From positions 2,418,001 to 2,482,000 of the forward strand of contig NC_007777.1 in the NCBI RefSeq assembly GCF_000013345.1: a DNA stretch of 64,000 bases, in the 5' to 3' direction. The position numbers and the translations under genes were made by a program. Position 1 is the first letter of the stretch. Each line of letters opens with the position of its first letter. The notes under the pieces are model-generated. The model was not told where the DNA came from. It saw only the letters and a list, made by a program, of their open reading frames with translations, and ran no database searches. Below are positions 41,345 to 59,266 of the stretch, piece after piece. Origin of the DNA: Frankia casuarinae. Its GTDB lineage: Bacteria > Actinomycetota > Actinomycetes > Frankiales > Frankiaceae.

Positions 41345-41356
41345 TCGGAGAACATC

Positions 41357-42831: not shown

Positions 42832-42851
42832 GTCCGAAAGGAGAACGTGGG

Positions 42852-43820: not shown

Positions 43821-43826
43821 GTCGCC

Positions 43827-44507
43827 ATGGGCATCGATCCCGCCCGGATCGCGTTCTTCGACGTCGACGAAACACTCATCACCGTCAAGGGGATGCTCAG
43901 TTTTCTGGAGTTCCACCTCGGCGCGCCGGACCGGTACCGGCAGATCGCGGACCGGTTGCACCGGCTCGCGGCCGACGGGGTGCCACGCGGGGAGACCAAC
44001 CGGCTCTATTACGAGGTCTTCGCTGGCCAGCGGGAGACCGAGGTGGCCGCAAGCGGCCGGCGGTGGTTCCAACAGGAGATGGTGGGGGGCTCGCTCTTCC
44101 ACGGCGAGCTGGTGCGGGTGCTGCGCCGACTCCAGGCCGCCGGGACGATCATCGTCCTGGTGTCGGGATCGTTCTCGGCCTGCCTGGACCCGATCGCGGA
44201 ACACCTCGGGGCGGATCAGGTGCTCGGTACGGTCCCCGAAGTCCGTGCCGGCCGGTACACCGGCCGGGTGGTCCGCACCGTCATCGGTGAGGGCAAGGCC
44301 ACCGCGGCCCGGGCGTTGCTCGCCGAGTTCGGCGTCGACGGGCGGCTCTGCGTCGCCTACGGCGATCACTCCTCGGACCTGCCGATGCTCGCGGCCGTGG
44401 GCCACGCCGGCGTGGTCGGACAGGACCCGGTTCTCCTCGCCCATGCGGCCGAGCGCGGCTGGGACCTTCTTCCCGGCATTCCGACACGAGGCAATGGGAA
44501 GGCATGA
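43827..44507 (+). CDS. HAD-IB family phosphatase (SerB-like)
   Basis: The 226-residue protein has HAD motif I in IAFFDVDETLITVKGMLSFL, motif II in IIVLVSGSFSACLDPIA and a lysine in GEGKATAARALL. Motif IV is CVAYGDHSSDLPMLAAVGHA. HAD-IB enzymes remove phosphate from small molecules, for example phosphoserine. Its place between an aldo/keto reductase and a KAS III-like gene, with a four-base overlap at the 3' end, makes it a pathway enzyme of unknown substrate. Confidence 0.8.
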   Translation: MGIDPARIAFFDVDETLITVKGMLSFLEFHLGAPDRYRQIADRLHRLAADGVPRGETNRLYYEVFAGQRETEVAASGRRWFQQEMVGGSLFHGELVRVLRRLQAAGTIIVLVSGSFSACLDPIAEHLGADQVLGTVPEVRAGRYTGRVVRTVIGEGKATAARALLAEFGVDGRLCVAYGDHSSDLPMLAAVGHAGVVGQDPVLLAHAAERGWDLLPGIPTRGNGKA

Positions 44508-45544
44508 TGTACCTCAGATCGGGGTTCGGTCTCCGAGCGGTCCGAGCGTGGTTGCCCGACGCGACCGTGTCCGCCCGAGACGCGATCGGCCAGGGCCACA
44601 TCAGCGAACAGGACCTGGCGAACACCGCCGTCATCCGGGTACCGGTCGCGCGGGATGTCGCGGCGCCGGAAATGGCGGTCCGGGCCGCGCGGGCGGCGCT
44701 GTACGCCGCCGGCTGGGACGGAAGCCGCCTCGGTTTCAGCGCGCACGCCTGGATCCATCACCAGGGGCACGACTTCTGGTCGCCCGCGCACTACATCGCC
44801 GATCAGCTCGGTGCCCGCCGCAGCGTCCCGCTGGGCATCCAGGTCATGTGCAACGGCGGAGGGGTCGCCCTGGAGGCGGCCTGCGCCCGCCTGCTCGCCG
44901 ACAGCACGACCGGCGCCGCGCTGGTGACGACGGCCGACTGTTTCCGCGACGAGGGATTCGACGGCTGGAGCGGTGACTACGGAGTCTTCTACGGTGACGG
45001 CGCGACGGCCATGCTCCTGCACGAGCGGGACGACGCGGTGGACGAGCTGACGCTGCTCGGTCTGGCCAGCGGGGCGGTCTCCGCCGCTGAGGGGCTGCAC
45101 CGCGGTCGCGACCCCTTCACCCCGGCGAGCCGGTGGCTCAGCGAGCGAGTGGACGTGAGGCGGACGAAGAAGGCCTTCATGGAGGACGTCGGCACCGCCG
45201 GCTTTTTCCGGGACGTGCACGCGACGCTCCGTCGCATCATCGCGGACTGCCTCGCCGACAGCGGCCTCACCTCCGACGATCCGCGGCTGCGCCTCATCGC
45301 CCTGCCCCGGGTCGGTCTCAAGGTGCGGCAGGAGACCTATCACCCGGCCGTTGAGAACGCCACCACCGCCAAGATCGTGGACCTCGGCGCGGAGACCGGG
45401 CATCTGGGCGCGGGCGACATGGGGGCGAACCTCGCCGCGATCGTCGAACAGGACCTGCTCGCCCCGGGCGAGTTCGCCCTGGTGATCGGCGCCGGCGGTG
45501 GCTTCAGCTTCTCCTGCGCGGCCGTCGGCCGACCGGCGGCCTGA
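44504..45544 (+). CDS. KAS III-like acyltransferase with altered active site
   Basis: The 346-residue thiolase-fold protein has the nucleophilic cysteine in GIQVMCNGGGVALEAACARL and FYGDGATAMLL. The usual His-containing AHQAN motif is replaced by LIALPRVGLKVRQETY, and the Asn motif GNT by ETGHLGAGDMGANLAAI. It therefore lacks a standard Cys-His-Asn triad. Similar KAS III-like proteins in natural-product clusters transfer acyl groups to alcohols or amines instead of condensing with malonyl-ACP. That role is likely but not proven. The start ATG overlaps the HAD stop. Confidence 0.72.
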   Translation: MMYLRSGFGLRAVRAWLPDATVSARDAIGQGHISEQDLANTAVIRVPVARDVAAPEMAVRAARAALYAAGWDGSRLGFSAHAWIHHQGHDFWSPAHYIADQLGARRSVPLGIQVMCNGGGVALEAACARLLADSTTGAALVTTADCFRDEGFDGWSGDYGVFYGDGATAMLLHERDDAVDELTLLGLASGAVSAAEGLHRGRDPFTPASRWLSERVDVRRTKKAFMEDVGTAGFFRDVHATLRRIIADCLADSGLTSDDPRLRLIALPRVGLKVRQETYHPAVENATTAKIVDLGAETGHLGAGDMGANLAAIVEQDLLAPGEFALVIGAGGGFSFSCAAVGRPAA

Positions 45545-45635: not shown

Positions 45636-45827
45636 ATGAATGCGCCTTCCGTGGGCGGCCGCGGCCGCCCGGTGATTGTTCTGATCGCGGTCTGCCTGGC
45701 CGTGCTGACCCTGCCGGCCTCCCTGACCGGCACGTCCGTCGCCCTGCCGCGGATCGGTGTCGACCTGCACGCCGGGTACGCTCCGTTGCAGTGGGTGGTC
45801 AACTCCTACGCAAGTAGTACGTCGTAG
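45636..45827 (+). pseudogene. MFS exporter, 5' fragment interrupted by the integrated element
   Basis: The first 58 native codons (MNAPSVGGRGRPVIVLIAVC ... LQWVVNSY) encode the first transmembrane helix of a DHA2-type exporter. After the core site CCTAC (45805-45809) six foreign codons (ASSTS) lead to a TAG. Removing 45810-57862 (one core copy) joins it in frame with 57863, giving WVVNSYNLAFACSM. Confidence 0.9.
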
Positions 45828-45829
45828 CA
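45805..45829 (+). other. attL of the integrated element
   Basis: The MFS-side core CCTAC (45805-45809) is followed by GCAAGTAGT and the arm ACGTCGTAGCA (45819-45829). The same core occurs at attR (57858-57862), preceded by the inverted arm TGCTACGACGT. The exact crossover within the shared 5 bp cannot be fixed. Confidence 0.75.
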
Positions 45830-45848
45830 ACGTCTGACCTGCATAGAT

Positions 45849-45877
45849 GTACCCCGCTTTCCCTGCAAGCGGGGTAC
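45849..45877. terminator. Hairpin at the left end of the element
   Basis: A perfect 11-bp stem GTACCCCGCTT / AAGCGGGGTAC (loop TCCCTGC) lies just inside attL. It may isolate the element from transcription of the interrupted MFS operon. There is no long T tract. Confidence 0.5.
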
Positions 45878-46020
45878 CTTCGCGCGCTCGGGGCCTAGCT
45901 GCCGCAGATGGGCGCTGAGGTCGCGTCCGGCGCCGGGTCGGTTCGGTGCGACCATCCGGCCGCAGGGGCGGCGTCGTCCGATCTTGCTTCCCCTGGGACG
46001 CCGGCTCGTAGCGGAAACGT

Positions 46021-46034
46021 TCATCACGTGATGA
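46021..46034. promoter_or_regulatory. Perfect 14-bp palindrome upstream of the first element genes
   Basis: TCATCACGTGATGA is fully symmetrical and lies in the 370-bp non-coding stretch before the genes at 46250 and 46552. It resembles a dimeric regulator site. The regulator is unknown; the HTH/TPR protein at 47598-49010 is a candidate. No other feature was recognised between 45878 and 46249. Confidence 0.35.
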
Positions 46035-46249
46035 TCGCTCGATGGAAGGTGCGTTGTGGACCCTGCCGATGTCCGCAGGGGCACAGAGAATCGACCGGCG
46101 GCATTCCTCGGGATTCCCTGAATCGGCGGACTATCCGACGTCCACCGGGTATCATGAAAGAGAATTGAATAGAGCGGCCCGGGACGGTGTTGGTAGCACC
46201 ATTCCCGGGCCTTGATCCCAAATCCTGCGTGAACAGGAGAGTGGAACCC

Positions 46250-46552
46250 ATGGCCATGATGCCATACGGGACGGGCGGCGATAGCCGGTCCCATCTACAG
46301 GTCGTGTTGCAGGCGCACCCGGCGGAAGACGCTGAGATTCAGCTGCCGAAGCACACCCAGTACGCCGCGTTGCGGCCGGTGCTGCTGCTCCCGGGTGGGG
46401 TGCGGGTGATGGTGGACCCGAACGCGCCGTTGGACGTGGCGGGCAAGTGGTGGGACTCGGTGACCCTGGCCGGCACGATGGCTTCTCTGTGGTACCAGTC
46501 GCAGGTCACCGGATTCCCGGGCGGTCGCCACCGTCGGGACAGGGGCCAGTGA
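46250..46552 (+). CDS. Hypothetical protein of the integrated element
   Basis: The 100-residue protein starts at ATG 46250 behind CAGGAGAGTGGAACCC. Its middle reads HTQYAALRPVLLLPGGVRVM, VDPNAPLDVAGKWWDSVTLA and GTMASLWYQSQVTGFPG. No known family was recognised. Its stop overlaps the next start by one base (TGATG), so it is co-translated with the resolvase-like protein. Confidence 0.5.
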   Translation: MAMMPYGTGGDSRSHLQVVLQAHPAEDAEIQLPKHTQYAALRPVLLLPGGVRVMVDPNAPLDVAGKWWDSVTLAGTMASLWYQSQVTGFPGGRHRRDRGQ

Positions 46553-46911
46553 TGGCCGGCACGGTGCGGGCGCTGAGTTTCACCCGACACACCGGCACTG
46601 GGGACAGTGCGGAACAGCGGGACGTGTTCACCTCGGCGTGCGCGGCACGGGGCTGGTCCGCTGGTGGTGCGGTGCGTGAGTTCGGGTCGGGGCTGCGGGC
46701 CTGGTGGGCGGCACTGCGCCTGGTCCGGGCGGGCCGCTATGACGTGGTCGTGGTCGACAGCATCGACCGCCTTGCCGAGACAGAATCGGGCCAGCTGGCC
46801 GCGTTGGAGATGCTGCGCTGTGCCGGTGTGCGGCTGCTCGTGGCCCGGGACGGAACCGACACGGCCGATCCGGTCGGCGCTGAGCTGGTCGCCTCGCTCC
46901 TGACCGTGTAA
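46552..46911 (+). CDS. Stand-alone resolvase-fold protein without the catalytic serine
   Basis: The 119-residue protein has the fold order of a serine-recombinase catalytic domain: VRALSFTRHTGTGDSAEQRD, FTSACAARGWS, GRYDVVVVDSIDRLAETESG and LEMLRCAGVRLLVARDGTDT. In active enzymes the first strand ends Y.R(V/Y)S with the nucleophilic serine; here it is FTRHTG. The recombinase and DNA-binding domains are missing. It may be a regulator or decoy of the integrase, or a decayed remnant. Start ATG overlaps the preceding stop. Confidence 0.6.
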   Translation: MAGTVRALSFTRHTGTGDSAEQRDVFTSACAARGWSAGGAVREFGSGLRAWWAALRLVRAGRYDVVVVDSIDRLAETESGQLAALEMLRCAGVRLLVARDGTDTADPVGAELVASLLTV

Positions 46912-46930
46912 CACCTGGTGGCACCCGAAC

Positions 46931-46960
46931 GGCCGGTAACCCGGATCACGGTTACCGGCC
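46931..46960 (+). terminator. Hairpin terminator after the resolvase-like gene
   Basis: A perfect 11-bp stem GGCCGGTAACC / GGTTACCGGCC with an 8-base loop, followed by GTTTCCCG, lies 20 nt after the stop at 46911. Confidence 0.75.
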
Positions 46961-47597
46961 GTTTCCCGTCGGCGGAAATCTACGCCACGACACGTTTTTG
47001 TCTTTCACATACTCCGGGCTGAGCTGATCTCCTCCGTCGGTCGGGCAGGCCGCGCCTTACCCCGGGTTCTCCGGCCGTGCACGAGCGCCAACGTTGCCGG
47101 TGCCTGCTGGGTGCTGTGCGCTCTTGCGCGGTCGGGGGTTCCGGGGTAACCCCTCTGGGTGTCCGTCCGGCGGAGGCGATCAGCGGACATCCGCCGCACC
47201 TCCCCCTCCTCCAGAGCGAGGGCCGGGGTCTGGGGCAGCGCCCCAGAAAACACCAGCGTCAACCGCACACACCCCGCTCCGTCAGATCTCGCGGCCTTGG
47301 GGCGTAGCCCCCCGGGTATGAGCTGCCCGAAGGGCATCCGTATCTCTCACGAACCGCAGGCTTCCGCCTTTCCCGGCGTGCGGCGGGTGGTCTGACGCTC
47401 CGACGGGCCGACGCACCGACACACCCGGCAGGCCGACGCACCGGTGGGGAGCCGACCGAAGGGAGGCGGGGCCCCGCCGCGTGCGGCGAGCCCGGCCGGG
47501 CGTGGCGAGTGCGGCGCGCACGGCGTGTGCGGCAGGGCGTCCGCGCGCCCCGTAGGGGCGCCTTGAAACGGTACAGAACATTAGCGAGGATCTTGAA
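46961..47597. other. Gene-free GC-rich region with short hairpins
   Basis: No convincing gene was seen. A perfect hairpin TCTGGGGC-AGC-GCCCCAGA followed by AAAACA lies at 47229-47247, and further G/C-rich inverted pieces near 47520-47570 (GGGCGCC-type) precede the convergent HTH/TPR gene end. The region may contain terminators for both sides; a role in replication or transfer of the element cannot be excluded. Confidence 0.35.
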
Positions 47598-49010
47598 CTA
47601 CTCGGGGATCCGGGTTGTCGGGGTCACCTGGCAGTAGTTCTCGACCTCGGCTGCAATGTCGAGTGCCTGCGGCGATCGTCCGTACCGCTGGTCGGTCAGC
47701 GCACCTTGAATGCGCTGCATGAGGGTGCGGATCCCGTGGTTGCGGCGCTGGGCTGGGATGGCTAGGACGGGCCGGAGGGCGTCTTGGGCGCCGTCGACGT
47801 CACCCCGGCGGGTGCGAGCCAGAGCGAGGTTGATGTGGGCCCCGGCTCGGCTGCCGTAGCTGGCGTTACCTGCGGCGGCGAAGGCTTCCACGGCGTCCAT
47901 GGCTGCCTGCTCGGCGCGTGGGTCCTCGGGGAGTCGGGTAAGGGCATCGGATGCGATGAACAGTTGGACGGCTACCGGGGTGGAGAGTTCACCCCCGATC
48001 TCGTCCAGGTCGTCGGGACGGGTCCGCTCGCGGAGGTCTACGGCTCGCGTGATGGCGGCATGGGCCTGTGCGCTGTCGCCGAGTGCCGCATGGGCACGGG
48101 CTGCCTGTACGGCGGTCTCTATCGCTGCCGTGCCGTGAACGAGGTGGACGTCTGCTTCGGCTGCTTCGATGTAGCGCAGTGCCTCGTGTGGTGCCCCTGT
48201 CCAGTAGGCGGCGCGGGCCTGTTCGGTGCGTACCCAGATGCGCAGGCCGGGATGATCTGCCCGGTCGGCGCACAGGTAGGCGACGCGGGCGTAGATGTCG
48301 GCGGTTGTGTGCTGGCTGAGGTCGACTCCTGCGCGGGCGAGGAGGCCGGAGGTGATTGCTGCGAGAAAGTAGAGGTCCCGGGCCTGGTCTGGCGGAGTTG
48401 GGCCGTCCAGGAGTCTGAAGGCGACGCGCTGTGCGTCGAGTAGCGGGCCTACAAGGTTCGTCGCCTCGGTCGGGAACGCGATGGCGAGGCTGCGTACCTG
48501 TTGGTGGAGGAAGTCGAGAACTTCCGGTCGAGCCGCGGCCCGTTCGGCGTTGACCAGGAAGTTAAACGCCTCTTCTGATTCGGTCATGATCCGCCTCTCC
48601 GGCCCGTCGGTATCGGGCGGGCGTGAAGCGGTGTACCCGCCGATGTCTCCAGAGTAAGGCGGCGGAGAGGACGCGGCCCGGTCACTGGGAGAGTCGGCCT
48701 GCTGCGGAGTCGTCTGGGCGTGCTCGGCGGGGAGCCGGTGGCGGAATCCCAGGTCGGCGTCTCCAGTGCCGAAGATGTGCCGGTAGCTGGCGCGGTAGTC
48801 GGCGCCGGGGTAGGTCTGCCCGCGTTCGTGCTTGCCGATGACTTCGGCGGTCGCCAGTGGCGGGGTGAAGCTTCGTTCACGGGCGCTGTCGACGTCGATA
48901 TTGCGGATGCGTTCGGCGAGCGTGGGAAGGGTGAGCCCGTACTGAAGCCGATGCCGGCGGAGCATAGAGGGGTTCCATCCGGGGTGCTCTGTCGCGCGAT
49001 GTGGCGTCAC
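47598..49010 (-). CDS. XRE-type HTH regulator with TPR-like C-terminal domain
   Basis: The GTG start 49010 (VTPHRATEHPGWNPSMLRRH) is preceded by CTGGGAGGCACCC. The N-terminal 100 residues hold an HTH-like region (YGLTLPTLAERI ... EVIGKHERGQTYPGADY). A low-complexity linker leads to a helical repeat domain of about 320 residues with TPR pattern: ARAAYWTGAPHEALRYIEAA, ARAHAALGDSAQAHAAITRA and AGAHINLALARTRRGDVDGA. Such proteins are common on actinobacterial plasmids and integrative elements. Their peptide or partner ligand is usually unknown. It faces away from the lasso operon and could control it or the replication genes. Confidence 0.7.
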   Translation of the reverse strand: MTPHRATEHPGWNPSMLRRHRLQYGLTLPTLAERIRNIDVDSARERSFTPPLATAEVIGKHERGQTYPGADYRASYRHIFGTGDADLGFRHRLPAEHAQTTPQQADSPSDRAASSPPPYSGDIGGYTASRPPDTDGPERRIMTESEEAFNFLVNAERAAARPEVLDFLHQQVRSLAIAFPTEATNLVGPLLDAQRVAFRLLDGPTPPDQARDLYFLAAITSGLLARAGVDLSQHTTADIYARVAYLCADRADHPGLRIWVRTEQARAAYWTGAPHEALRYIEAAEADVHLVHGTAAIETAVQAARAHAALGDSAQAHAAITRAVDLRERTRPDDLDEIGGELSTPVAVQLFIASDALTRLPEDPRAEQAAMDAVEAFAAAGNASYGSRAGAHINLALARTRRGDVDGAQDALRPVLAIPAQRRNHGIRTLMQRIQGALTDQRYGRSPQALDIAAEVENYCQVTPTTRIPE

Positions 49011-49393
49011 GGGTGCCTCCCAGAACAAGGGGTTGCACGAAGCGTAGCGGCCCATGTTCGGTGGCGGACCGGGCGGCAGGGAAGTCACCGTGGATTCGGC
49101 TGGTCGACTGATCATTTGACCTGCGATTCGACTGGTCACGTCAACCGGACAACGGCTCTGATCGCCGGACGGGCCGTCGGTGACAGCCGGTTACTTGACG
49201 TGGCATCTGTCCTTGGGCACGTGCGGAATCCGCGTTGAACTTCTCGTAGCGGCCCTGGTCGGGCTTGGGGCCGTCCCCCCCGGCCGGTGCCGTTGGGGGC
49301 CTGGGGTGCCGTGGCTGGAGTGCGCAGCATTCTTGGTCCCACAGGTACCGGGGGTTCGCGGTCTGACGGATGCGGTCGGTAGAGGTGGGAGCG
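49011..49393. promoter_or_regulatory. Divergent region between the HTH/TPR regulator and the genes leading to the lasso cluster
   Basis: No gene was recognised. The stretch must contain the promoter of the regulator and probably that of the plus-strand genes. No obvious promoter boxes were found by eye. Confidence 0.3.
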
Positions 49394-49702
49394 ATGAAGG
49401 ACGAGGACAGGTACGACGTCGACGATGACGACTGGGAGTGGGATGACGAGAACGGGTATTCCTACGGGGCTCGCGCGAATGGTGAACCTCCGGGACGTGA
49501 TGACCCCGTCGGGAGCCTTCGCGCTGGTAGTGCCGGGCGCTCAGGTGGTCGCCCCATTCGCGGATCTGCGGTCGATGGCGAACTATGCCCACCGGCACGG
49601 GATCACGATTCCGGGATACCGTGCGCTTCCGTTCCTGGACTTGGGGATGATCGCGAGCCTTTGAGGGATCTGGCTCTGGCTCTTCGTCCGGGGCCCGAGT
49701 AA
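49394..49702 (+). CDS. Small acidic hypothetical protein (start of a possible frameshifted gene)
   Basis: ATG 49394 follows AGGTGGGAGCG and encodes MKDEDRYDVDDDDWEWDDEN GYSYGARANGE. This is strongly acidic and gene-like for about 35 codons. Later codons in this frame look unnatural. The neighbouring frame from about 49479 reads MVNLRDVMTPSGAFALVVPG and AQVVAPFADLRSMANYAHRH, which is more protein-like. Either two overlapping genes exist or one gene suffered a frameshift. No family recognised. Confidence 0.35.
   Translation: MKDEDRYDVDDDDWEWDDENGYSYGARANGEPPGRDDPVGSLRAGSAGRSGGRPIRGSAVDGELCPPARDHDSGIPCASVPGLGDDREPLRDLALALRPGPE
49479..49664 (+). CDS. Hypothetical small protein (alternative frame)
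   Basis: The 61-residue frame MVNLRDVMTPSGAFALVVPG ... YRALPFLDLGMIASL has normal actinobacterial codon use and a hydrophobic middle. It has no clear ribosome site of its own, so it may depend on coupling with, or a frameshift from, the acidic frame that starts at 49394. Confidence 0.4.
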   Translation: MVNLRDVMTPSGAFALVVPGAQVVAPFADLRSMANYAHRHGITIPGYRALPFLDLGMIASL

Positions 49703-50172
49703 TGGCGAGTGGGGCGGTCACGGCCACGGGGTGGGAATTTCACACGGGCCAGCTCCCGGAGTTCGTGCCCTGGCACCGCGACGGTTTGATCATCGGCATG
49801 CTGCCAGAGCCGTTGCGGGCGGACAGCGAGGCACAGGAGATGCTGCTGTCCGACCAGTTGGCGGTGGACGAGGAAATCATGGTGGGGGCAAGTATTGGGA
49901 TTGCCCAGCTTGCTCCGGTGGGGCTCGTACTGATGCACCGCAGGTTCACGTCGCTGATGGAATCCCGGGTGGCGTGGGCGGTCGGTATCCGGCTGCGGCG
50001 ACAGAGGATCATGGCAGGTGAGTTGCCCCGGATCGTAATGGCGGGATCGAGACCGAACCCGGATGTGACACCGGACGGAGTGACGTTCAGTTTGCATCGG
50101 GTGCGCCTGCGCGACCACGAAGTGGTGTTGCCGATCGACGTCTGGGAGATCCATTTCCCTGCTCTGATTTGA
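49702..50172 (+). CDS. Hypothetical protein upstream of the lasso cluster
   Basis: The 156-residue protein MASGAVTATGWEFHTGQLPE has FVPWHRDGLIIGMLPEPLRA, MVGASIGIAQLAPVGLVLMH and a C-terminus LRDHEVVLPIDVWEIHFPAL. No known domain was recognised. It may be part of the element backbone, since nothing links it to lasso peptide maturation. Confidence 0.45.
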   Translation: MASGAVTATGWEFHTGQLPEFVPWHRDGLIIGMLPEPLRADSEAQEMLLSDQLAVDEEIMVGASIGIAQLAPVGLVLMHRRFTSLMESRVAWAVGIRLRRQRIMAGELPRIVMAGSRPNPDVTPDGVTFSLHRVRLRDHEVVLPIDVWEIHFPALI

Positions 50173-50308
50173 AGGTCGACGCTGCGTCATAGTCAAGAAT
50201 GACGCTCCGGTGAGCCTTCACCCAGATCCCCCGACGCGGAATCGGCCGCTGTCGGGTACCCAGGCGCGGTATTGGCCGCGCAAACACCAGGAAAGGTAGG
50301 GCGGAAAA

Positions 50309-50452
50309 ATGGTGACGGTTGACCTCCAGTCGCACGAGGGTCCGGCGGAAAAGGATCCGGTGCTGCTGGTGTGCCTCGGTGAGGCGTCGATGGTGACACT
50401 CGGCCAGGGCAAGGGCAGCGCGGAGGACAAGCGGAAGGCGTATAACAGCTAG
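50309..50452 (+). CDS. Lasso peptide precursor, albusnodin-like
   Basis: The 47-residue peptide starts at ATG 50309 after GTAGGGCGGAAAA. The leader (residues 1-31) ends ...LGEASMVTL with threonine at -2, the usual recognition residue. The proposed 16-residue core is GQGKGSAEDKRKAYNS. Gly1 can form the macrolactam with Glu8 or Asp9, and AYN at the end could form the plug. The pattern GQG.G...EDKR.AYN closely resembles what I recall for albusnodin. Lys10 corresponds to the acetylated lysine of albusnodin, and a GNAT gene lies in this cluster. Cyclase and protease genes follow directly. Confidence 0.85.
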   Translation: MVTVDLQSHEGPAEKDPVLLVCLGEASMVTLGQGKGSAEDKRKAYNS

Positions 50453-50464
50453 TCCGCGTCCTGC

Positions 50465-50496
50465 TGGTGCCTGGTTCCGCATGGGGCCAGGCACCA
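50465..50496 (+). terminator. Hairpin between the lasso precursor and the cyclase gene
   Basis: A perfect 10-bp stem TGGTGCCTGG / CCAGGCACCA lies 12 nt after the precursor stop and 26 nt before the cyclase start. It has no T tract. It may attenuate transcription so that precursor mRNA exceeds enzyme mRNA, or stabilise the short precursor transcript. Confidence 0.6.
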
Positions 50497-50521
50497 GTAC
50501 GTTCAGGAAAGGACGAAAGGG

Positions 50522-52350
50522 ATGGGAGACATGCGCTGGTTCGGGGGCTTCAGTAGCGCCGCAACGCCACCGCGGACCCCTGCCAACAGTGCGGAGGTGT
50601 GGCCGACCATTCCCGGATGCTGGACGGTCGGCCGATGGGACGGGCACGAGGTCCGCACGACGCACAGCGACCACCGAATGGTTGCGGTGATCGGCCCCTG
50701 CGCCATCACTCGGAATTCTTTGACGCGACTCGGAACGCACGGGGTTCCGGACGACGTGGCCTGGCAGTGGGCGGGTAGTTACACCACTGTGGAAGTCACC
50801 GACAGCCTTACCCGCATCTGGACCGACCTCGGTGGAGCATGGCCCATCTACACAGCCTCGCTGGACGGCGGGGTGTACTGGTCTTCCAGCTCACGCGCGT
50901 TGGCTGCGCTGACCGGTGCCGGGCCGGATCTGGATCGGTTGGCGATGTGGCTTTTGGCTCCGTCGGTGCCTGTCCTGTTTGCGGGGCGGTCCGCGTTCAA
51001 GGGCGTAGGGCTTGTACCCGCCGGACATCGCCTGACCCTGATCCGCTCGGGGGCGGTGCGGGCGGAACGGATGTGGTCGCCTCGACCATGCGCAGATTCA
51101 CCCGGCAGGCGACTGCGGGCGGAACTGGCAGCGGCGGTGGCCGTGCGGGCAGTCAACGCGACAGCGCTGACAGCGGATATGTCAGGCGGGTTCGACTCGA
51201 CATCTCTTGCTTGCTAGCCCATGCGTCGTCCGGCACTTCGCGGCCGGTGACCGGGGTGACGGTGCATCCAGTCGGCCGTGCCACGGGTGGGGACGTGGAC
51301 TATGCGCGGCTCGCGGCCAGACATTCCGGAATCGTTCATCGCCTCATGCCGCTGGGCGCGGAGCACGCGCCGTATTCTGCGTTGGATGTTGTCCCGGTAA
51401 CAGACGAACCGGCGCCGTCCACGATCGCGCATGCCCGATTTTCCGGTCAACTCGCCTGGATGCGGAGAACCTTCGACACTGATTGCCATTTGACTGGCGA
51501 TGGCGGGGATAGCCTGCTGTGTTCTCCACCAATCATTCTGGCAGATTTGTTCGCGATCGGGCATAGCCGGCGGGCAGTGGTCGAAACGATCCGATGGGCG
51601 CGGTTGCGTAGGCTTCCCGTGTGGCCGCTGCTGCGGTCGGCTCACCGTGTCTCGCGAGAACGTCGCGCGGCAGCGCTGGCGGCGCTGGCCACGGAGTTGG
51701 GTGGAGGTTCCTCACGAAGTACCGCCGATGGCGATATCGGCTGGTGCGGGATCGAACCTCTTCCCTCATGGGCGACGTTGCAGGCACGGGAACGGGCACG
51801 GACTGTCGCCTCGGCGGTAGCTGAACGCACGGATGATCCCACCCCCGGTTCGTTTGCCACGGTCATGACCGGTGAAGGAATGGCGGAGGTGGGGCGCTCC
51901 GCGCGCGCCGATATTCAGCTTGCCGAAGCGGCCGGGGTAGCGCTGCACAACCCATTCACGGATTCTCGCGTGGTGGATACCTATCTGTCGGTTTCCCTGG
52001 GTGACCGTCCCGGCCCCGCCGACTACAAGCCCGTGTTGCGGGCTGCGATGGCGAACCTGTTCCCTGCCAGGCTGGCAGAGCGCACTACCAAGGGCGATTT
52101 CAATCCTGACCACTACCAGGGGATGCGCACGAACCTGGCTTCGCTCCATGCCCTGGCTGACGGCCGGTTGGCCGCTCTGGGCCTCGTCGAGCCCGGCGAG
52201 TTCCGACAGACGTTGACGATGATGGCCGCAGGGCTCCCTGTCCCGTTCGCCACCGTGGAGCCGGCTTTGGCGGCGGAGGTATGGCTACGGGCCCTGGGTG
52301 ACACATCCGATGTGGCGTGGATTCCAAGAACCACGGAGAGCGATAGATAA
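50522..52350 (+). pseudogene. Lasso cyclase (asparagine-synthetase-like), one-base frameshift
   Basis: The start ATG 50522 follows GGAAAGGACGAAAGG. The first frame encodes MGDMRWFGGFSSAATPPRTP, a glutaminase-like N-domain, and the ATP-binding P-loop in DMSGGFDSTSLA, then meets TAG after one more Cys. A -1 shift at the CTTGCTTGCTAG repeat (about 51208) continues LLAHASSGTSRPVTGVTV and gives the rest of the synthetase: HLTGDGGDSLLCSPP, HNPFTDSRVVDTYLSVSLGD and KPVLRAAMANLFPARLAERT. The joined product is about 608 residues, normal for lasso cyclases. Deletion of one base, a sequencing error or programmed slippage are all possible. The last codon overlaps the next start. Confidence 0.82.
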
Positions 52351-53111
52351 TGTCATGTGAGTACATCAGCGTCCCCGAACACGTTCGTGCGCTCGATGTC
52401 GGCCCGGCCACCGTGATCGTCAACTACCGCAACGGCCGTGCTGATGTACTGACCGGGCCGGCCGCGCGCTGGTGGGAGGCGGCAACGACCAGCGGGTACG
52501 GCGACCCGTCAGGGCTGCTGGACACCCAGTCCGCGCGGGCCCTGCGTGAACAGCTCCTTACGGCAGAACTGATCATGGAGACCCTTCGACATCGGGCGGG
52601 CCAACCGACGGCGGTCGGGCCGTCGTGGGTGCCAAGCTGGGGAACGCAGGAGATGCAGGCCGGGCGCACGACGGCCGGATCCGCATCCTGCGGGATGACC
52701 TTGCGTGCGGGTGTGGCCCTACTCGTCGTGCTCGGCGCGCTCTCGGCCGGACAAGGTCGCAGCCGGATGGCGCGGCTACTTCGTCTGCTGACGTGGGCCA
52801 CGCGACGCACCAGGGTCAACGCCTCAGCTGATCACCTCATGGAAGCGGTCAACGCCGTCCGGCGGGCAGGAACGGTCATGCCGGGTCGTGTTGCCTGCCT
52901 CGAAGAATCATCAGCGGCGTTCCTCCTGCTGGCCATGGGCCGGAAGCGGGTGACGTGGTGCCACGGCGCAGCAGCCGACCCTGTCCGGCTCCATGCCTGG
53001 GTGGAGACTGACGACGGACAGCGGGTTGCCGAACCGTCGTCAACCGCACGGTTCGGCGTCCTGCGCGCCGTACCCGAACGCGACAACGGAAGCGAGAACA
53101 GGCGTGCATGA
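52350..53111 (+). CDS. Lasso peptide maturation protein, RRE (B1) fused to leader protease (B2)
   Basis: The 253-residue protein has an N-terminal PqqD-like recognition element (residues about 1-80: YISVPEHVRALDVGPATVIV, ADVLTGPAARWWEAATTSGY). A transglutaminase-like protease domain follows. Catalytic Cys is in GRVACLEESSAAFLLLAMGR and His in VRLHAWVETDDGQRVAEPSS. Many actinobacterial clusters encode the two halves as separate genes; here they are one chain. It would bind the leader and cut it off so the cyclase can close the ring at Gly1. The start overlaps the cyclase stop by one base. Confidence 0.82.
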   Translation: MSCEYISVPEHVRALDVGPATVIVNYRNGRADVLTGPAARWWEAATTSGYGDPSGLLDTQSARALREQLLTAELIMETLRHRAGQPTAVGPSWVPSWGTQEMQAGRTTAGSASCGMTLRAGVALLVVLGALSAGQGRSRMARLLRLLTWATRRTRVNASADHLMEAVNAVRRAGTVMPGRVACLEESSAAFLLLAMGRKRVTWCHGAAADPVRLHAWVETDDGQRVAEPSSTARFGVLRAVPERDNGSENRRA

Positions 53112-53685
53112 ACCGATCGTGTGGATCCGGGGCGAACGCGCTGGGCTCGGCCCGTTCTCCAGCAACCTCGTCGATCTTTACTGGCAGTGGGAGCAGGATC
53201 CTGGCGTCCTGGTCGGCTACGGTCGCCAGACACCGGACTCGCTGGAAAACCGGCGAGAGGGGTTCCAGCATCAGGCGCGCGGCACGGACGATCAGCTGAG
53301 GTTCACCGTCTACGACGTGACCACGGATCCGCCGACCCCCGCTGGCACCACCGCCGTTCTCATCGACCATCACGTGCGAACCGGGGAGTTCGTGATCCAG
53401 CTCGGCCCGGCCAGCCGTGGCAACGGTATCGGTACCGAAGCGACGCGGCTCACACTCGACTACGCCTTTCACGTGACGAACCTGCGATGCGTCCACCTAT
53501 CGGTACTCTCTCCGAACCTGGCTGCGATCCGGGCCTACGAGAAAGCTGGTTTCCGCAGGATCGGGGAGCGTCGAAACTCCGGATACTGGCTGGGTGAGCT
53601 TGCCAACGAAACGCTGATGGACGCGATACCCGCCGACTTCCCGGGGCCGTCTGCGGTACGGCAGGCCGTCGAGTCGGACCGGTAG
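53104..53685 (+). CDS. GNAT acetyltransferase of the lasso cluster
   Basis: The 193-residue protein starts at GTG 53104 (VHEPIVWIRGERAGLGPFSS), 8 bases before the previous stop. The acetyl-CoA site is LGPASRGNGIGTEATRLTLD (R/Q-x-x-G-x-G/A type). The AFHVTNLRCVHLSVLSPNLA and AIRAYEKAGFRRIGERRNSG segments complete the fold. Albusnodin requires an acetyltransferase acting on a lysine, so this enzyme probably acetylates Lys10 (or Lys4 or Lys12) of the peptide. The overlap with the protease gene supports a dedicated role. Confidence 0.8.
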   Translation: MHEPIVWIRGERAGLGPFSSNLVDLYWQWEQDPGVLVGYGRQTPDSLENRREGFQHQARGTDDQLRFTVYDVTTDPPTPAGTTAVLIDHHVRTGEFVIQLGPASRGNGIGTEATRLTLDYAFHVTNLRCVHLSVLSPNLAAIRAYEKAGFRRIGERRNSGYWLGELANETLMDAIPADFPGPSAVRQAVESDR

Positions 53686-54365
53686 AGCAACGATTCTCGC
53701 GGAACTATCCCTACCGATCCACCCCCGCCAGGCGACCCCGCGGCCTTCCCGACCCTTCCCCTCGGGTGGAGGTGCCCCGGGGTCGTCGCCATGCCCCCTG
53801 GCACCCAATGCGCCGGGGTGGTATCGTCAATGACGGCATTCGAGGGTTCTGAACCCTGCGCCACGATGATCTTTTTCTTGTACGGCAGTACGCCACATTG
53901 TCGGGCTGTCCACATGTGAGCCGCCTCGGAGCGGCACGGACCGGGCTCGGGCTGCTGCACCGTGGGTCGCCGTCGGTGGCCTGCGTCCAGTCGTGTTGAT
54001 GTTCCGTCTGGGGTGCGCATGTGCCGTGTTCTGCTGCTGTCCTGGGTTGCTGCTGCCTGTGGGGTGAGCGGGTAGCCGGGGGCGGCTGAGCCTGCGCGGG
54101 GTTTCCGCGCGTTCACCTGTTCCCCGTGCCGGTGCCGGTCTGGTGCCGGTCGCGCTGCCGTTTCGTGTGCCATTAGCGCTGCCGACTATGGGCGTGTTTT
54201 TGTGTGTGGCATTGTGCCGGCGTTTCGGTGTGGGATGGCTGTACGGCGGAAGGCCCGTCGGGTTCGGTTTCCGTTCCGGTTCTCCTGTTCTCATTCCTGC
54301 TTTCTTTCTTCGCGCTCTCCGCTGGTCTGACCTGTGGTTTTCCGGGTCTGGGCTGGTGGGGGCGT
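53686..54365. other. Gene-free region before repSA
   Basis: No convincing gene was found. The inverted pair CGTCA-A-TGACG near 53824-53834 and G/T-rich stretches near 54170-54350 precede the replication gene. The region may hold its promoter and a double-strand origin, as is usual upstream of repSA-type genes, but no origin consensus was recognised. Confidence 0.35.
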
Positions 54366-55823
54366 GTGCGAGTGAAAGGGCGCGGTGTGTTTTCCGTGGA
54401 TGTGGGCGTGAGCCTGCCCGAAAACCGGCCGGTCGCGGGTGGCTGTTCCCGTCCGATCCGCCTGTCCGGCCATGTCGATCATGTGGATGTCGGGACCGGT
54501 GAGATCCGCCGTGCGCTGTCCGGGAAGGATCTGCCGGGCGGGGTGCTGCATGTGCGGTGCGGCAACCGGCGGGAGTCCGCGTGCCCGGCCTGTTCGGCGG
54601 TGTACAAGCGGGACGCCCGGCGGCTGGTCCTGGCCGGGCTCGCGGGCGGCAAAGGCGTACCAGAGACCGTCACGACGCATCCGGCGTGGTTCGTGACGTT
54701 GACCGCTCCGACCTTCGGGCCGGTGCATTCCCGCCGTCAGCAGGGCGGTAAGGGCGGTCCGGTGCGGGCCTGCCACCCCCGGCGGGGGCTCTGCCCCCAT
54801 GGCCGTCCGGCAGGCTGTCATGAGCGGCACCGCGAGGATGATTCCCGGCTCGGTTCCCCGATCTGCCCGGACTGCTACCAGTACGGCCGGGCCGTGACGT
54901 GGAACGCGCTGGTACCTCGGCTCTGGAAAACGACACGCGACGCGACGGAATCCGCGGTCGCGGCTGCTGCGGGTCTGACGGTGGCGGGGCTACGCCGCTC
55001 GGCGCGGCTGAGCTTCGTCAAGGTCGCGGAAATGCAGGCGCGGGGCGTGGTGCATCTGCATGTGGTGGTCCGGGTCGACGGGCCGGACGGGCCTGGCTCG
55101 TCTCCTCCTGGCTGGGCGGATGGTGATCTGGTCGCGGACGCGCTGCGGGACGTCGTCGGGTCGGTCGCGGTAGCTGCTCCGGATCCGGACATGGGCACCC
55201 TCGACGGCACCGCATCGGCTGACGGGTGGGCGGTGCGCTGGGGTGTCCAGGTCGACATCCGGCGCATCGCGCTCGACGGACCCACCGATGTCGGACGGAT
55301 CAGTAACTATCTGGCGAAGTACCTCACCAAGTCGGCGGCGGCCGGCGGGGCGCTGGATCATCCGGTGCGGTCGCTGGCCGCGCTGGGCCGGCTGATCCTG
55401 GCGCCGCATGTGCGCCGTCTGGTGGAGACCTGCTGGCGGCTCGGCCATGATCCGGTGTTCACCGCGGCGTTGGATGCGGCACTCGGCCGGGATTCCGGCG
55501 ATATCCCACGGCTACTGCGGTGGGCGCATCAGATGGGGTTCGGTGGCCACTGGCTGACGAAATCGCGGACCTACTCGACGACGTTCACCGCGCTACGGAC
55601 GGTACGGCGGGTGTGGTCGCGCACGATCGGCGCGGCGATGGCGGGCCGTGTCCCGGTGGACGCCTTCGGCCGGGCTGAGGGCGATGAGAACACGATCGTT
55701 CTCGGGGCGTGGACGTATACGGGCCGGGGGCTAGACCTCGGCGGACACGGGGCTGACCCTCCCGAGTTGCGGTCGTCGCGGACGGCTGGTAGCCCGGTGG
55801 GCAATGGGCCGGCTGAGAGATGA
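54366..55823 (+). CDS. repSA: RepSA-family replication initiator
   Basis: From GTG 54366 (VRVKGRGVFSVDVGVSLPEN) the protein has about 485 residues. RepSA features are GGVLHVRCGNRRESACPACS, AVYKRDARRLVLAGLAGGKG, TTHPAWFVTLTAPTFGPVHS, SPICPDCYQYGRAVTWNALV and QARGVVHLHVVVRVDGPDG. The late ISNYLAKYLTKSAAAG has the tyrosine pair typical of rolling-circle initiators, and ILAPHVRRLVETCWRLG follows. The family, known from pSAM2, starts rolling-circle replication of integrative elements after excision. An upstream start at 54204 would add a hydrophobic stretch and is less likely. Confidence 0.82.
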   Translation: MRVKGRGVFSVDVGVSLPENRPVAGGCSRPIRLSGHVDHVDVGTGEIRRALSGKDLPGGVLHVRCGNRRESACPACSAVYKRDARRLVLAGLAGGKGVPETVTTHPAWFVTLTAPTFGPVHSRRQQGGKGGPVRACHPRRGLCPHGRPAGCHERHREDDSRLGSPICPDCYQYGRAVTWNALVPRLWKTTRDATESAVAAAAGLTVAGLRRSARLSFVKVAEMQARGVVHLHVVVRVDGPDGPGSSPPGWADGDLVADALRDVVGSVAVAAPDPDMGTLDGTASADGWAVRWGVQVDIRRIALDGPTDVGRISNYLAKYLTKSAAAGGALDHPVRSLAALGRLILAPHVRRLVETCWRLGHDPVFTAALDAALGRDSGDIPRLLRWAHQMGFGGHWLTKSRTYSTTFTALRTVRRVWSRTIGAAMAGRVPVDAFGRAEGDENTIVLGAWTYTGRGLDLGGHGADPPELRSSRTAGSPVGNGPAER

Positions 55824-56344
55824 GTACCGGGTCGGTTCAGCCGTCGCTGTTCGATGACCTCGACGACTCCGGTTCGGGCCCGGCGGAGCTGGGTGGGCAG
55901 GTGGCTGGCCCGGAGACGAGCACCGAAGGTGCCGATTGTTCGTCGTCGTTGCTCACGGACACGGCCGGTGAGCGCTCGTGTGAGACGACAGTGGCGTGGG
56001 TGGGCGGGTGGGCTGCACCTCGACCGGCGTTGGCGCGGGGCGGTCTGCGGGATATCGGGGCTGATCGGGTGATGTCGTGTGAGTCGGAGACGGATGGTGG
56101 TCGTGGGCCTGGTGCTGCTGGGCGGCGGCGTGGTCGGTCCTCGGGCAGGTCGGTCTCCAGGTCGGCGGCTGGCCCTCCTGATGCCGGCCGTGAGGCTGAG
56201 TTGGAGGCGGATGCGCGGTGGATAGCGGCTCAGCTCGCGCGGGCTCCGGAACCATCGGCGCTGATGGCGGCGGCGATCGTGACCGCACTTGCACCGAAAC
56301 CCGCGCGGAACGTCGACAGCGGCGGTCAGGCAGGTCCGGGATAG
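55820..56344 (+). CDS. Hypothetical protein between repSA and int
   Basis: The 174-residue protein MSTGSVQPSLFDDLDDSGSG overlaps the repSA stop by four bases (ATGA). It is mostly low-complexity and acidic or basic, with a helical C-terminal segment EADARWIAAQLARAPEPSAL followed by MAAAIVTALAP. Excisionase genes often lie here in related elements, but no HTH was recognised. A recombination directionality factor is a guess. Its end overlaps the convergent integrase end by 19 bases. Confidence 0.45.
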   Translation: MSTGSVQPSLFDDLDDSGSGPAELGGQVAGPETSTEGADCSSSLLTDTAGERSCETTVAWVGGWAAPRPALARGGLRDIGADRVMSCESETDGGRGPGAAGRRRGRSSGRSVSRSAAGPPDAGREAELEADARWIAAQLARAPEPSALMAAAIVTALAPKPARNVDSGGQAGPG

Positions 56345-57831
56345 CGCCATTGCGGGTCCAGCCGTTCCCGCAACGGAAGATCCTTCCCGGGAACCACAAT
56401 GATCTTCACCATGATCGTTGACAGGACACGGCGTTTCTCCGTGAGGGTGCCTCCGCGCCAGAGTCGGAGCGCTTCCGCTCCGTCCAGGACGGTCACGAGA
56501 CGCGCGCGGCGGGCCAGTTCGGCGTCGATCTCCCGTAGCCGGGTCTCGTACTGGGCCTCGAGCTGGCCACCCAGCCGCAGGCTGATCTCCTTGGCGGCGA
56601 TCGCGCGGGGAAGATCGGCCAGTTCGCGTTCCTTCTCGGTCCGCTCGGCCTTCAGCTCGTCACCGTCCGCGACGTCGCCGGTCTTCTCCCAGTCTCGGCG
56701 GCGTAGGTAGGCGTCAACCAGGCGGGTCATCAGGTCGTCCGCGTCGGCGGCGTTGATGTGGAACGACTGGTCACACTCGAAGTGTTCACGGCTCTTCCCG
56801 AGACGATGCCGCCACAGGGCGTACGCGCGGGGAGAGTTCCGGACCAGGGAACGCCTGCACTTGTGGCACACGTAGTACCCGGCGAACGTGTGCTTGACGG
56901 CCGTACCCGTGCCCTTGCGGGTCGTGACCGCTTCCAGCGCCGCGCATGTCTCCCGCCACTCCTCCTCGGTGAGGATCGCGGGGAAGTTCGCCATCGGGCC
57001 CTTCACGGTCCAGCCCGTGTGAACGTTTCCCGTCGCGAACAGACCAGCGATCCTCGGGTTACGCAGCATCGCGGAGAGGCTGGCGCGCGTCAGGCTGCCG
57101 CTCTTCATCGTGTCGCCCGGGTGCGTGCGCCGGTGCGGGATCCGAAGCCCACGGTCGTAGAAATCATCCGAGACCTTGAGAACGGCCTCACCTTCGCGGA
57201 TACGCCGCGCGGCCTCGCGTAGCCAGCGGGCCTGCTCCTCGTCGACGGACCACACCGTCACGATCTTCTTACCTGACCGGGTGATCGTCTGGGACCACCC
57301 GAACCCCACGGGGCCACCCAGGAACTCCAGGGCTTCGCGCTTCGCGTCCAACTTCCGCTTGACCAGCTCGGACTTCAAACCCGAATCACTGACGGACTTC
57401 CCCACCGCGCCATGCCATGAGTCACGGTCGCGCTGCCGGCGGAAATCGTAGGTCGTGGCCTTCTCCCCATCGGTCACGATGAGGCGGCCCCCGATCCGCT
57501 GCATGATCTTGCCGAACTCGGCTCCGACCACCGGATCACGGGTGATCCGGCTTTCCTCTCACGCCACGACCAGCCGATACTTCCCGGCGCGCAAGACGGA
57601 CAGGAACCGCTCGAACTCAGGCCGAACGACGTCTTCCCGCCACGCTGAGACGCCGTCATCGGCCCATGCCCCGGCGATCCAGTATTCGCCGGTCAGGGCG
57701 GCGTACTTCTGCCCTCGGGCGAACTGATCCGGGATACGGGCATCCTTGTCGAGATCGGACATCCGTCCGTACCACAGGGCGGGGTCGGCATCGGGCCATT
57801 GGGGCAAGGGGCTCAACGGCGGAAATTCCAT
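56326..57831 (-). pseudogene. Serine integrase with in-frame TGA
   Basis: The ATG start 57831 (MEFPPLSPLPQWPDADPALW) is next to attR. Catalytic domain: YGRMSDLDKDARIPDQFARG (nucleophile about Ser25), ADDGVSAWREDVVRPEFERF and GKYRLVVA. Then a TGA (57559-57561) occurs where relatives have Trp (VVA-W-EESR), followed in the same frame by EESRITRDPVVGAEFGKIMQ and the rest: recombinase domain, zinc ribbon (YYVCHKCRRSLVRN) and coiled coil. One base change (TGG to TGA) explains it. A restart at GTG 57531 would lack the active serine. The total would be 501 residues. Confidence 0.85.
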
Positions 57832-57838
57832 ACCATGA

Positions 57839-57862
57839 TGCTACGACGTTTTAAACACCTAC
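57839..57862. other. attR of the integrated element
   Basis: The arm TGCTACGACGT (57839-57849) is the inverted copy of the attL arm. TTTAAACA and the core CCTAC (57858-57862) follow, after which the MFS reading frame resumes (AACCTGGCC). Rejoining the element ends gives an attP with two 11-bp inverted arms around the core. Confidence 0.75.
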
Positions 57863-59266
57863 AACCTGGCCTTCGCGTGTTCCATGCTGGCATGCGGTTC
57901 GGCCGCCGACATCCTGGGTCGCAAGCGGCTGTTCGTCGCCGGCCTCACCCTGTTCAGCCTGTCGAGCGCGGTGAGTGTGCTGACGTCCGACATCATCGTG
58001 CTGGATGCGGCCCGGGCGCTGGCCGGGGTCGGCGCGGCCGCAGTCATGACGGCCGGGTCGGCAATCCTCGCCACCACGTTCGAGGGCGCGGCGCAGGCCA
58101 GGGCGTTCGCCATCCTCGGTTCGGCGGCCGGCGCCGGGCTGGCTCTCGGTCCGTCGACCGCCGGGCTGCTGGTGGACGCCTTCGGCTGGCGAGGCGTGTT
58201 CGCCTCGCACCTGGTGGTCATGGTCCTGGTGGCCGTCGCGGTGCCGATGGTGCGGGAGTCGCGCAATCCCGCCGCGATCCGGTTCGACTGGCCGGGCATC
58301 GCCTCCTTCACGCTGAGCCTGCTGCTGCTGATGCTCGGTGTCGTACAGGGGCCGCAGTGGGGCTGGAGCAGCGCCGGCACGGTGCTGCTCCTCGTTGCGG
58401 CGGCGGTGCTCATGGCGCTGTTCGTCGTCGCCGAACTGCGCCAGGCGCGACCGATGTTCGACCTCGGTCTGTTCGGCCAGCCGCGCTTCCTGGCCGCCTC
58501 GCTGGTGCCGCTGTCCCTGTCCTTCGGGTTCGTCTGCCTGGTGGTGCTCCTGCCCGCCTACCTGACCGGTGCCCGCGGGATGTCCGTCGGCCGCGCCGGT
58601 GACACGATGATGCTGCTTACCCTGCCTGTGCTGGTGGTGCCGCTGGTTGTCAGCAACCTGGTCCGGCGCGGGCTGTCCACCCGGCTGGTGCTCAGCCTGA
58701 GCATGCTGGTGGCCGCCGGCGGTGCAGCCTGGCTCACGGTCATCGACCAGGACATCGCGGTCGTCAGCCTCATCGGGCCGCTGTTCCTGATCGGTACGGG
58801 CATGGGCATGACGGCCGGTCTGGTCGACGGTGTCGCGATCACCTCGGTGCGGCCCGAACAGGCGGGTACCGCCGCCGGCATGTTCAACACCGTGCGGCTG
58901 GCCAGCGAGGCGGTGGCGATCGCGGCGATGGGGGCCCTGGTGCTCGATGTGACCCGGGGGAGAATCTCCGCGGGCCTGCCGGCGACGGCGGTCCCGCCGG
59001 GCGGTGCCGATGCCGCCACGATCGCGAACAAGGCGGTCAGCGGGAACCTCACCGGCGCGGCGGACGGCCTCACCGGTACCGCCCGCGCCGATTTCCTCGA
59101 CCTGCTCACGCGCAGCTACACCCACGGCATCCACGTTCTGCTGTGGTTGCTGGTCGGCATCGGAGCCGCCACCGGGGTCGTGCTTCATCTGCTGCTGCGG
59201 CCGCGGGAGGTTGGCGTCACCACCACCGAGCAGGCGGAGCCCGTCACCGTGGCGGTGGACGCATGA
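57863..59266 (+). pseudogene. MFS exporter (DHA2 type), 3' fragment
   Basis: This part encodes NLAFACSMLACGSAADILGR then KRLFVAGLTLFSL and the remaining helices, with GSAAGAGLALGPSTAGLLVD (motif C) and AFGWRGVFASHL. Joined with 45636-45809 it gives about 525 residues with 14 transmembrane segments. Alone it could start at ATG 57884 but would lack the first helix. Its stop overlaps the FAD monooxygenase start by four bases. Confidence 0.88.

Follow-up and report, generated by a model that had tools for sequence, protein, structure and literature searches.

An albusnodin-family lasso peptide cluster with a split cyclase gene on an integrated RepSA element of Frankia casuarinae CcI3

Introduction

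Does the albusnodin-like gene cluster of Frankia casuarinae CcI3, a nitrogen-fixing plant-symbiont bacterium, still encode a lasso peptide pathway, and can the integrated element that carries it still move? The cluster lies in the 64,000-nucleotide stretch of DNA analysed here (the window), where its genes follow each other in the order A-C-B-T across positions 50309-53685: precursor (A), cyclase (C), fused RRE-protease (B) and GNAT (T) (Table 1). An earlier note, made from the letters of the window, had called it a complete cluster. Family and gene order were recognised correctly, as NCBIfam models match A, B and C and T is a GNAT; completeness, however, has to be rejected, because the cyclase occupies two reading frames. 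We consider it likely that the cluster arrived as cargo of the element, that its cyclase is broken and the cluster non-productive, and that the integrase is stopped.

Results

Table 1. Features of the element and the lasso cluster (positions in the window)
Feature	Position	Strand	Evidence
Interrupted MFS-transporter gene (element target), 5' part	45636..45809	+	alignment to uninterrupted gene (L058)
12,053-bp integrated element; exact ends ambiguous within shared core CCTAC	45810..57862		uninterrupted target gene, congener G005
Inner left att arm ACGTCGTAGCA, reverse complement of right arm	45819..45829	+	read from sequence
Left-end ORF, function-unassigned, 55% with sister element	46187..46552	+	tblastn; no PHROG match
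Left-end ORF with weak likeness to N-terminal domains of serine integrases/invertases, 58% with sister element	46552..46911	+	PHROG 95 E 1.5e-5; tblastn
NsdA-family TPR-like regulator	47598..49139	-	NF053720 88.2 bits, cut-off 75
ORF upstream of precursor	49702..50172	+	no Pfam, NCBIfam or PHROG match
A: albusnodin-family precursor, 47 aa, core GQGKGSAEDKRKAYNS	50309..50452	+	NF033525 'albusnodin family lasso peptide' 73.2 bits
C, N-terminal half of the cyclase, terminating in SGGFDSTSLAC and a stop	50522..51217	+	NF033561 positions 1-228/561, 260.7 bits
Deletion of a single nucleotide, between about 51210 and 51211, with the stop that it creates	51206..51217	+	DNA alignment, three relatives
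C, second half: C-terminal part, other frame, within ORF 50839-52350	51214..52350	+	NF033561 positions 229-559/561, 471.5 bits
B: fused RRE and cysteine protease	52350..53111	+	NF033537 81.4 bits; predicted structure
T: GNAT acetyltransferase	53104..53685	+	Pfam PF13302 (Acetyltransf_3) 51.4 bits, PF00583 (Acetyltransf_1) 41.4 bits, both above cut-off
RepSA replication initiator	54204..55823	+	PF20199 469.1 bits, cut-off 34
ORF, 54% with sister element	55820..56344	+	tblastn; no PHROG match
Serine integrase gene, in-frame stop 57559-57561 (codon 91)	56326..57831	-	PF07508 above cut-off; PHROG 95, both parts
Inner right att arm TGCTACGACGT	57839..57849	+	read from sequence
Interrupted MFS-transporter gene, 3' part	57863..59266	+	protein 92% identical in congener G005; DNA alignment

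The 12-kb integrated element with RepSA that the earlier note had proposed can now be delimited to 12,053 bp, since the target gene is uninterrupted in a congener (G005), to which the left flank aligns up to 45809 and the right flank from 57854, with nine bases, AAC[T/A]CCTAC, in common. Long direct att repeats and insertion at a tRNA gene were both rejected: a repeat search (length at least 18) listed none at the element ends, and ARAGORN found no tRNA gene within the window. A replication protein and a defined integration site are present, as is an integrase gene, albeit interrupted; among the element ORFs scanned with Pfam, NCBIfam and PHROG no transfer gene, including the FtsK/SpoIIIE type, was recognised, and the element would therefore miss the three-component definition of actinomycete integrative and conjugative elements (AICEs) as given in PMC3218068.

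The same genome contains, at about 4.958-4.967 Mb, a sister element that has the same ends, RepSA and an integrase, and is without lasso genes. Its integrase frame is open, as it is in another genome (G003), whereas that of the lasso-bearing element is stopped. A search for phage relatives of the integrase gave none, and one for plasmid relatives gave one weak match. Mobility of the lasso-bearing element, by the sister integrase acting in trans or by read-through of the stop, is possible but doubtful. The second integrase copy shares 89% identity across 401 residues, the two elements resemble each other in the inner att arms that adjoin the core, and a Frankia alni element with a stop-interrupted integrase gene is reported to excise (PMC3218068). 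However, the two elements diverge in the sequence that separates the right arm from the core, the ORF scan recognised no gene for transfer, and no second copy of the lasso cargo was found across 35 Frankiaceae genomes.

Turning to the cluster itself, the 47-residue precursor at 50309-50452 is well over the NF033525 cut-off of 30 bits, and the translated core GQGKGSAEDKRKAYNS has Thr at -2, Gly1, Glu8, Asp9 and Lys10, as had been claimed. Two lysines had been regarded as extra relative to albusnodin; Lys4 also occurs in the Actinomadura formosensis precursor, whereas Lys12 is indeed found in none of the 18 other distinct loci with a recognised precursor. These were obtained with a regular expression that matched 19 of 25 related loci (none in L024, L026, L032, L034, L038 and L041). 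Because this expression itself demanded one of DK, EK, ED or NK within the core, the E-[D/N]-K motif is in part a product of the search. Two pairs, L026/L038 and L033/L040, have identical GNATs and contigs of equal length and are the same loci, which leaves 23 distinct loci among the 25. Within Frankiaceae, the precursor family is present in only one of 35 genomes. The computed monoisotopic mass of the mature acetylated CcI3 peptide would be 1718.83 (2+ at 860.42), or 1631.80 if Ser16 is absent. A scan for promoters and terminators found none, and a literature search for albusnodin together with Frankia found nothing in the library covered.

For B, the NF033537 match (cut-off 33 bits) spans residues 119-240, and the predicted structure of residues 4-80 has lasso leader-binding B1 proteins as its top three VIA-align matches, with Z values of 9.5-9.8 compared with 8.3 for 2xdv, which we take to be unrelated. 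Foldseek gave nothing at E 0.001, its first row being TbiB1 (E 0.013, probability 1.00), and the profile search of B found no solved relative by sequence. The model match and the predicted fold together support the single-chain RRE-protease put forward earlier. The GNAT at 53104-53685, likewise anticipated, is matched by two Pfam acetyltransferase models above their cut-offs and has a solved relative, 9iy3 (E 3.8e-101); a literature search for the PDB entries of the close GNAT found no paper naming them. In a GNAT tree built without L036 (GNAT in two frames), L023 and L039 (no GNAT match), the group of this GNAT crosses orders with support of 88/84, at a fork that is not starred.

The cyclase alone of the four genes has a broken frame; A, B and T are open. 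By sequence it is an NF033561 member, an albusnodin/ikarugamycin-type macrolactam cyclase, that is not intact: its halves abut at model positions 228/229 with neither overlap nor gap, and lie in two frames because one nucleotide is missing directly 3' of the SGGFDS motif. With that nucleotide lost, no complete cyclase is predicted. A profile search with the Amycolatopsis AA4 cyclase found no solved relative by sequence. The gene is a single open frame in 21 of the 23 distinct related loci, the two broken ones being those of L023 and L039; these, like the split GNAT of Streptomyces sp. JJ66, may represent decay or draft errors. Both lesions of the Frankia element are read from a single genome sequence, and a sequencing error is possible at one or both.

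Discussion

Taken together, the lesions in the cyclase and the integrase imply that the cluster is probably non-productive and that movement of the element through the integrase it encodes is not to be expected. The locus is probably a decaying element carrying, as cargo, a new and probably inactive member of the known albusnodin family. We propose the following course, in which (i) an ancestor of CcI3 would have acquired A-C-B-T on a small RepSA/serine-integrase element, the direction and time of this transfer being our reading, and the element inserted into the MFS-transporter gene, an insertion evident from the alignments; (ii) in an intact cluster, judging from albusnodin and from lasso biosynthesis in general, the RRE of B would bind the leader, the GNAT would acetylate Lys10 and the protease part of B would cut the leader off after Thr-Leu; (iii) on the same grounds, the cyclase would activate Glu8 with ATP and link this residue to Gly1, closing the ring around the threaded tail; (iv) in the present sequence the cyclase lacks one nucleotide directly after SGGFDS and the integrase frame contains a stop.

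Horizontal spread of the peptide together with the element, as had been suggested, may plausibly have taken place in the past, given the precise insertion, the sister element without lasso genes, the order-crossing GNAT group and the close relatives found on plasmids. It does not extend readily to the present copy, with its integrase stop, no transfer gene recognised in the ORFs scanned and no RepSA match beside the 25 related clusters. RepSA elements as the usual vehicle of such clusters were unsupported, as none of the 25 loci gave a RepSA, integrase or other backbone match (E 1e-3) in flanks that are short in several cases (L036, 5.6 kb; L042, 10.3 kb; L037, 11.8 kb). Short of sequencing errors at the lesions, recoding, or complementation in trans, a present benefit to the host or to the element, as had been envisaged, is unlikely.

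An unlikely alternative is that a sequencing error accounts for the frameshift in the cyclase, and perhaps also for the stop in the integrase, and that CcI3 produces an acetylated albusnodin-like peptide from a complete cluster. In its favour, each half of the cyclase is long and, the lesion aside, well conserved (471.5 and 260.7 bits), A, B and T are open, and the evidence comes from one genome sequence. That genome is one finished contig with 99.94% completeness, which indicates good general quality and says nothing on the base in question; against the alternative, the same element also contains the integrase stop, a lesion of a different kind. Still less probable is a broader scenario in which RepSA/serine-integrase elements are Frankia cargo platforms that move each other, the lasso operon is swappable and the GNAT is kept as 'cheater' immunity. 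Small elements without recognised transfer genes would then be moved through related integrases, and after cyclase loss the intact GNAT would protect against the acetylatable lasso peptides of neighbours. That programmed -1 frameshifting yields a cyclase, or that the two halves act as separate chains, is very improbable: the halves do join exactly at one NF033561 position, as a -1 shift would give, but by eye there is no slippery heptamer and possible restart codons have no clear ribosome-binding site, the downstream RNA folds no more stably than shuffled sequences (z 0.59, with 144 of the 200 shuffled versions equalling or exceeding it in stability), and the split is absent in 21 of the 23 related loci.

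The locus offers a clean case of a lasso peptide cluster carried by a precisely bounded integrated element, for which a congener shows the site uninterrupted and the same genome contains a clusterless sister element. For genome miners, it is an albusnodin-like cluster that is called by models and yet probably has no working cyclase, a poor isolation target until resequenced. In other respects the cluster is an unremarkable representative of a family already described.

The albusnodin cluster of Streptomyces albus DSM 41398, reportedly A-C-B-T in the work of Zong et al. 2018, shares with the Frankia cluster the gene order, the fused B, the GNAT and the EDKR core motif; the Frankia cluster differs in its broken cyclase frame and in its carrier, a RepSA/serine-integrase element. 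A Streptomyces BB1-1-1 plasmid encodes a precursor with the core GQGGGQSEDKRRAYNC(A), which presumably resembles that of albusnodin and from which the Frankia core differs at Lys4, Ser6, Ala7, Lys12 and the terminal Ser. The nearest relatives found are those of Amycolatopsis sp. AA4 (on a plasmid, L018), Actinomadura formosensis (L035) and Streptomyces sp. JJ66 (L036), with 60-70% likeness for the cyclase halves and 54-68% for B, and 78-82% for the GNATs of L035 and L018. In all three the cyclase frame is open, in contrast to F. casuarinae, whereas the GNAT, open in F. casuarinae, lies in two frames in JJ66. Their stretches gave no RepSA match (that of L036 being only 5.6 kb), while RepSA stands beside the Frankia cluster. 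With RepSA-type AICEs such as Faln2929, as portrayed in PMC3218068, the element has in common RepSA, a serine recombinase at one end and a protein-coding gene as its insertion site, and differs from them in its interrupted integrase frame and in that no transfer gene was recognised.

The lasso operon and its split cyclase

The precursor A, whose C-terminal core is GQGKGSAEDKRKAYNS, scores 73.2 bits against the NCBIfam albusnodin precursor model (cut-off 30), in a window (2,418,001–2,482,000) belonging to a single-contig genome of 5,433,628 bp. The B protein reaches 81.4 bits against the lasso B2 model (cut-off 33) through residues 119–240, and in its predicted structure (mean pLDDT 81.8) the best structural matches of residues 4–80 are lasso leader-binding proteins (5v1v_A: Z 9.8, 77 residues aligned, rmsd 2.6; 6jx3_B: Z 9.5, 73 aligned, rmsd 1.9), so that B is predicted to be a fusion protein. 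The GNAT T exceeds the cut-off for two Pfam acetyltransferase families, and its residues 4–192 match the solved-structure sequence of 9iy3, 9iy4 and 9ubc ('GCN5-related N-acetyltransferase') with an E value of 3.8e-101; no literature naming these PDB entries was found.

The cyclase occupies two frames, matching positions 1–228 and 229–559 of the 561-position family model NF033561, and the first is closed by a stop directly after SGGFDSTSLAC. Alignment with Streptomyces JJ66, Amycolatopsis AA4 and Actinomadura formosensis places one missing nucleotide between about 51210 and 51211. No slippery heptamer was seen near the split, the RNA downstream is not more stable than shuffles (z 0.59), and no clear ribosome-binding site was recognised by eye at the restart codons. 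A sequencing error could also account for the frameshift; the simplest reading is that the cyclase is a dead gene.

Among the loci from class genomes and plasmids (L018–L034), the cyclase halves share one open frame in 16 of 17, L023 being the sole truncated case, and the cyclase is open in seven of the eight named-genome loci (L035–L042), that of Amycolatopsis rubida (L039) being broken and its locus giving no B or GNAT match. Because two pairs among these 25 loci are one locus each and were counted once, the cyclase frame is open in 21 of 23 distinct loci. Of the 18 matches that individually exceed 300 bits in a further, overlapping sample of the class, 17 contain no internal stop. The GNAT of Streptomyces JJ66 (L036) lies in two frames; together with the cyclases of L023 and L039, all three from draft assemblies, it points to cluster decay elsewhere too. 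The positions of the breaks in these three albusnodin-type clusters are listed in the table.

One other lasso B2 match above cut-off is present in the genome, at 3.535 Mb, and we read the open 618-aa frame adjoining it as putatively cyclase-like. A table in PMC7532629 lists three 'bacteriocin/lassopeptide' clusters each for CcI3 and CcI6 and two each for three other strains.

Positions of the features discussed (window positions unless a locus is named)
Feature	Position	Remark
Element	45810–57862	RepSA/serine integrase
Left module	46155–47594	70% to sister element
Left-end ORF	46187–46552	relatives with internal stops
Precursor A	50309–50452
Cyclase, first frame	50522–51217	NF033561 1–228
Cyclase, second frame	50839–52350	NF033561 229–559
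B protein	52350–53111
GNAT T	53104–53685
Right module	54431–57862	82% to sister element
Integrase stop	57559–57561	codon 91
Second large serine recombinase	37071–39560 (+)	829 aa, outside element
Ketosynthase-like (FabH-, FabF-type) and FAD monooxygenase-like genes	40268–45544; 57863–60798	region around the split transporter gene
Sister element	L077 8669–18115	~4.958–4.967 Mb of genome
Second lasso-type locus	L081	3.526–3.545 Mb; separate B1-like and B2 ORFs, putative 618-aa cyclase-like ORF, ABC transporter
Broken cyclase	L039 9998–10866
Broken cyclase	L023 7710–9086
Broken GNAT	L036 4965–5358

The carrier element

The carrier is an integrated element with well-defined borders and in decay. 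The MFS-transporter gene that it splits is whole in the congener G005 (92–93% DNA identity), whose gene aligns with the left flank to 45809 and with the right flank from 57854, sharing nine bases, AAC[T/A]CCTAC; these alignments fix both borders and thus a length of 12,053 bp. Inverted arms of 11 bases, TGCTACGACGT and ACGTCGTAGCA, stand at the two ends. Between them lie two left-end ORFs, an NsdA-family regulator, small ORFs without assigned function, the lasso operon, RepSA, one further ORF without assigned function and the serine integrase; none of the ORFs scanned was recognisable as a transfer gene. The integrase frame is interrupted by a stop where the sister element and the congener G003 are open. 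Immobility is not certain, since excerpts of PMC3218068 report that another element excised despite a stop codon in its integrase gene. In the same excerpts, this 2011 survey of actinomycete elements excluded fragments with two or fewer of the integrase, replication and transfer genes, and none of the named CcI3 elements has a gene number near the present one, as estimated from position.

In several Frankiaceae genomes (G021:C14, G021:C51, G010:C665, G001:C1, G009:C433), relatives of one left-end ORF are interrupted by stops within the aligned region, reflecting either decay of the element family or an ORF start set too far upstream. The recombinase outside the element combines resolvase, recombinase and zinc-ribbon domains with helix-turn-helix/excisionase-like domains on its C-terminal side. 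As the split transporter gene sits among ketosynthase-like and FAD monooxygenase-like genes, insertion may have damaged another biosynthetic cluster too.

The genome holds nine RepSA matches, two being neighbouring pieces, and a second integrase copy with an open frame (89% identity over 401 residues). Both flanking modules match the sister element, the interiors differ in length (6.8 kb in the window element, 4.2 kb in the sister), and A, C, B and T have no match at E 1e-3 in the 19.9-kb sister-element stretch; the lasso operon therefore appears, from sequence comparison, to occupy a variable slot of a common backbone. The sister's own cargo comprises an HTH regulator and ORFs without a Pfam match, and its flanks suggest that it likewise splits a protein-coding gene.

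Distribution and relation to known systems

The precursor family occurs in 13 of 393 genomes of the class sample (11 exceeding the cut-off) and, at order level, where the search covered one family, in one of 35 Frankiaceae genomes, that of the window. A motif search identified a precursor at 19 of the 25 related loci, 18 of them distinct. All 18 contain E-[D/N]-K, which the search motif itself favours; Lys4 recurs once, in Actinomadura formosensis (GQGKGSSEDKRRAYN), and Lys12 in none.

Queried with the 503-aa frame containing the C-terminal cyclase half, plasmid records gave 32 matches at E 1e-5. Among the 20 listed, six have at least 48% identity (Amycolatopsis AA4, Streptomyces BB1-1-1 and four Pseudonocardia records) and 14 at most 31%; the AA4 cyclase shares 65.5% over 75% of the query. 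In a 21-row GNAT tree, the window protein falls into one group with those of Actinomadura formosensis and AA4, a grouping that crosses orders (support 88/84, not starred). A search of the 25 related loci turned up no RepSA or other element-backbone match. Horizontal movement of such lasso clusters is well supported; for movement by RepSA elements the claim rests on one case.

Excerpts of PMC9266682 and PMC8498205 describe the albusnodin cluster as ordered A-C-B-T with an acetylated Lys10, the product not being seen when the acetyltransferase gene is absent, and parts of a review (PMC13352647) describe lysine acetylation as self-resistance for triculamin and lariocidin. The cluster is of a kind already known, and the window copy is a new, probably inactive member.
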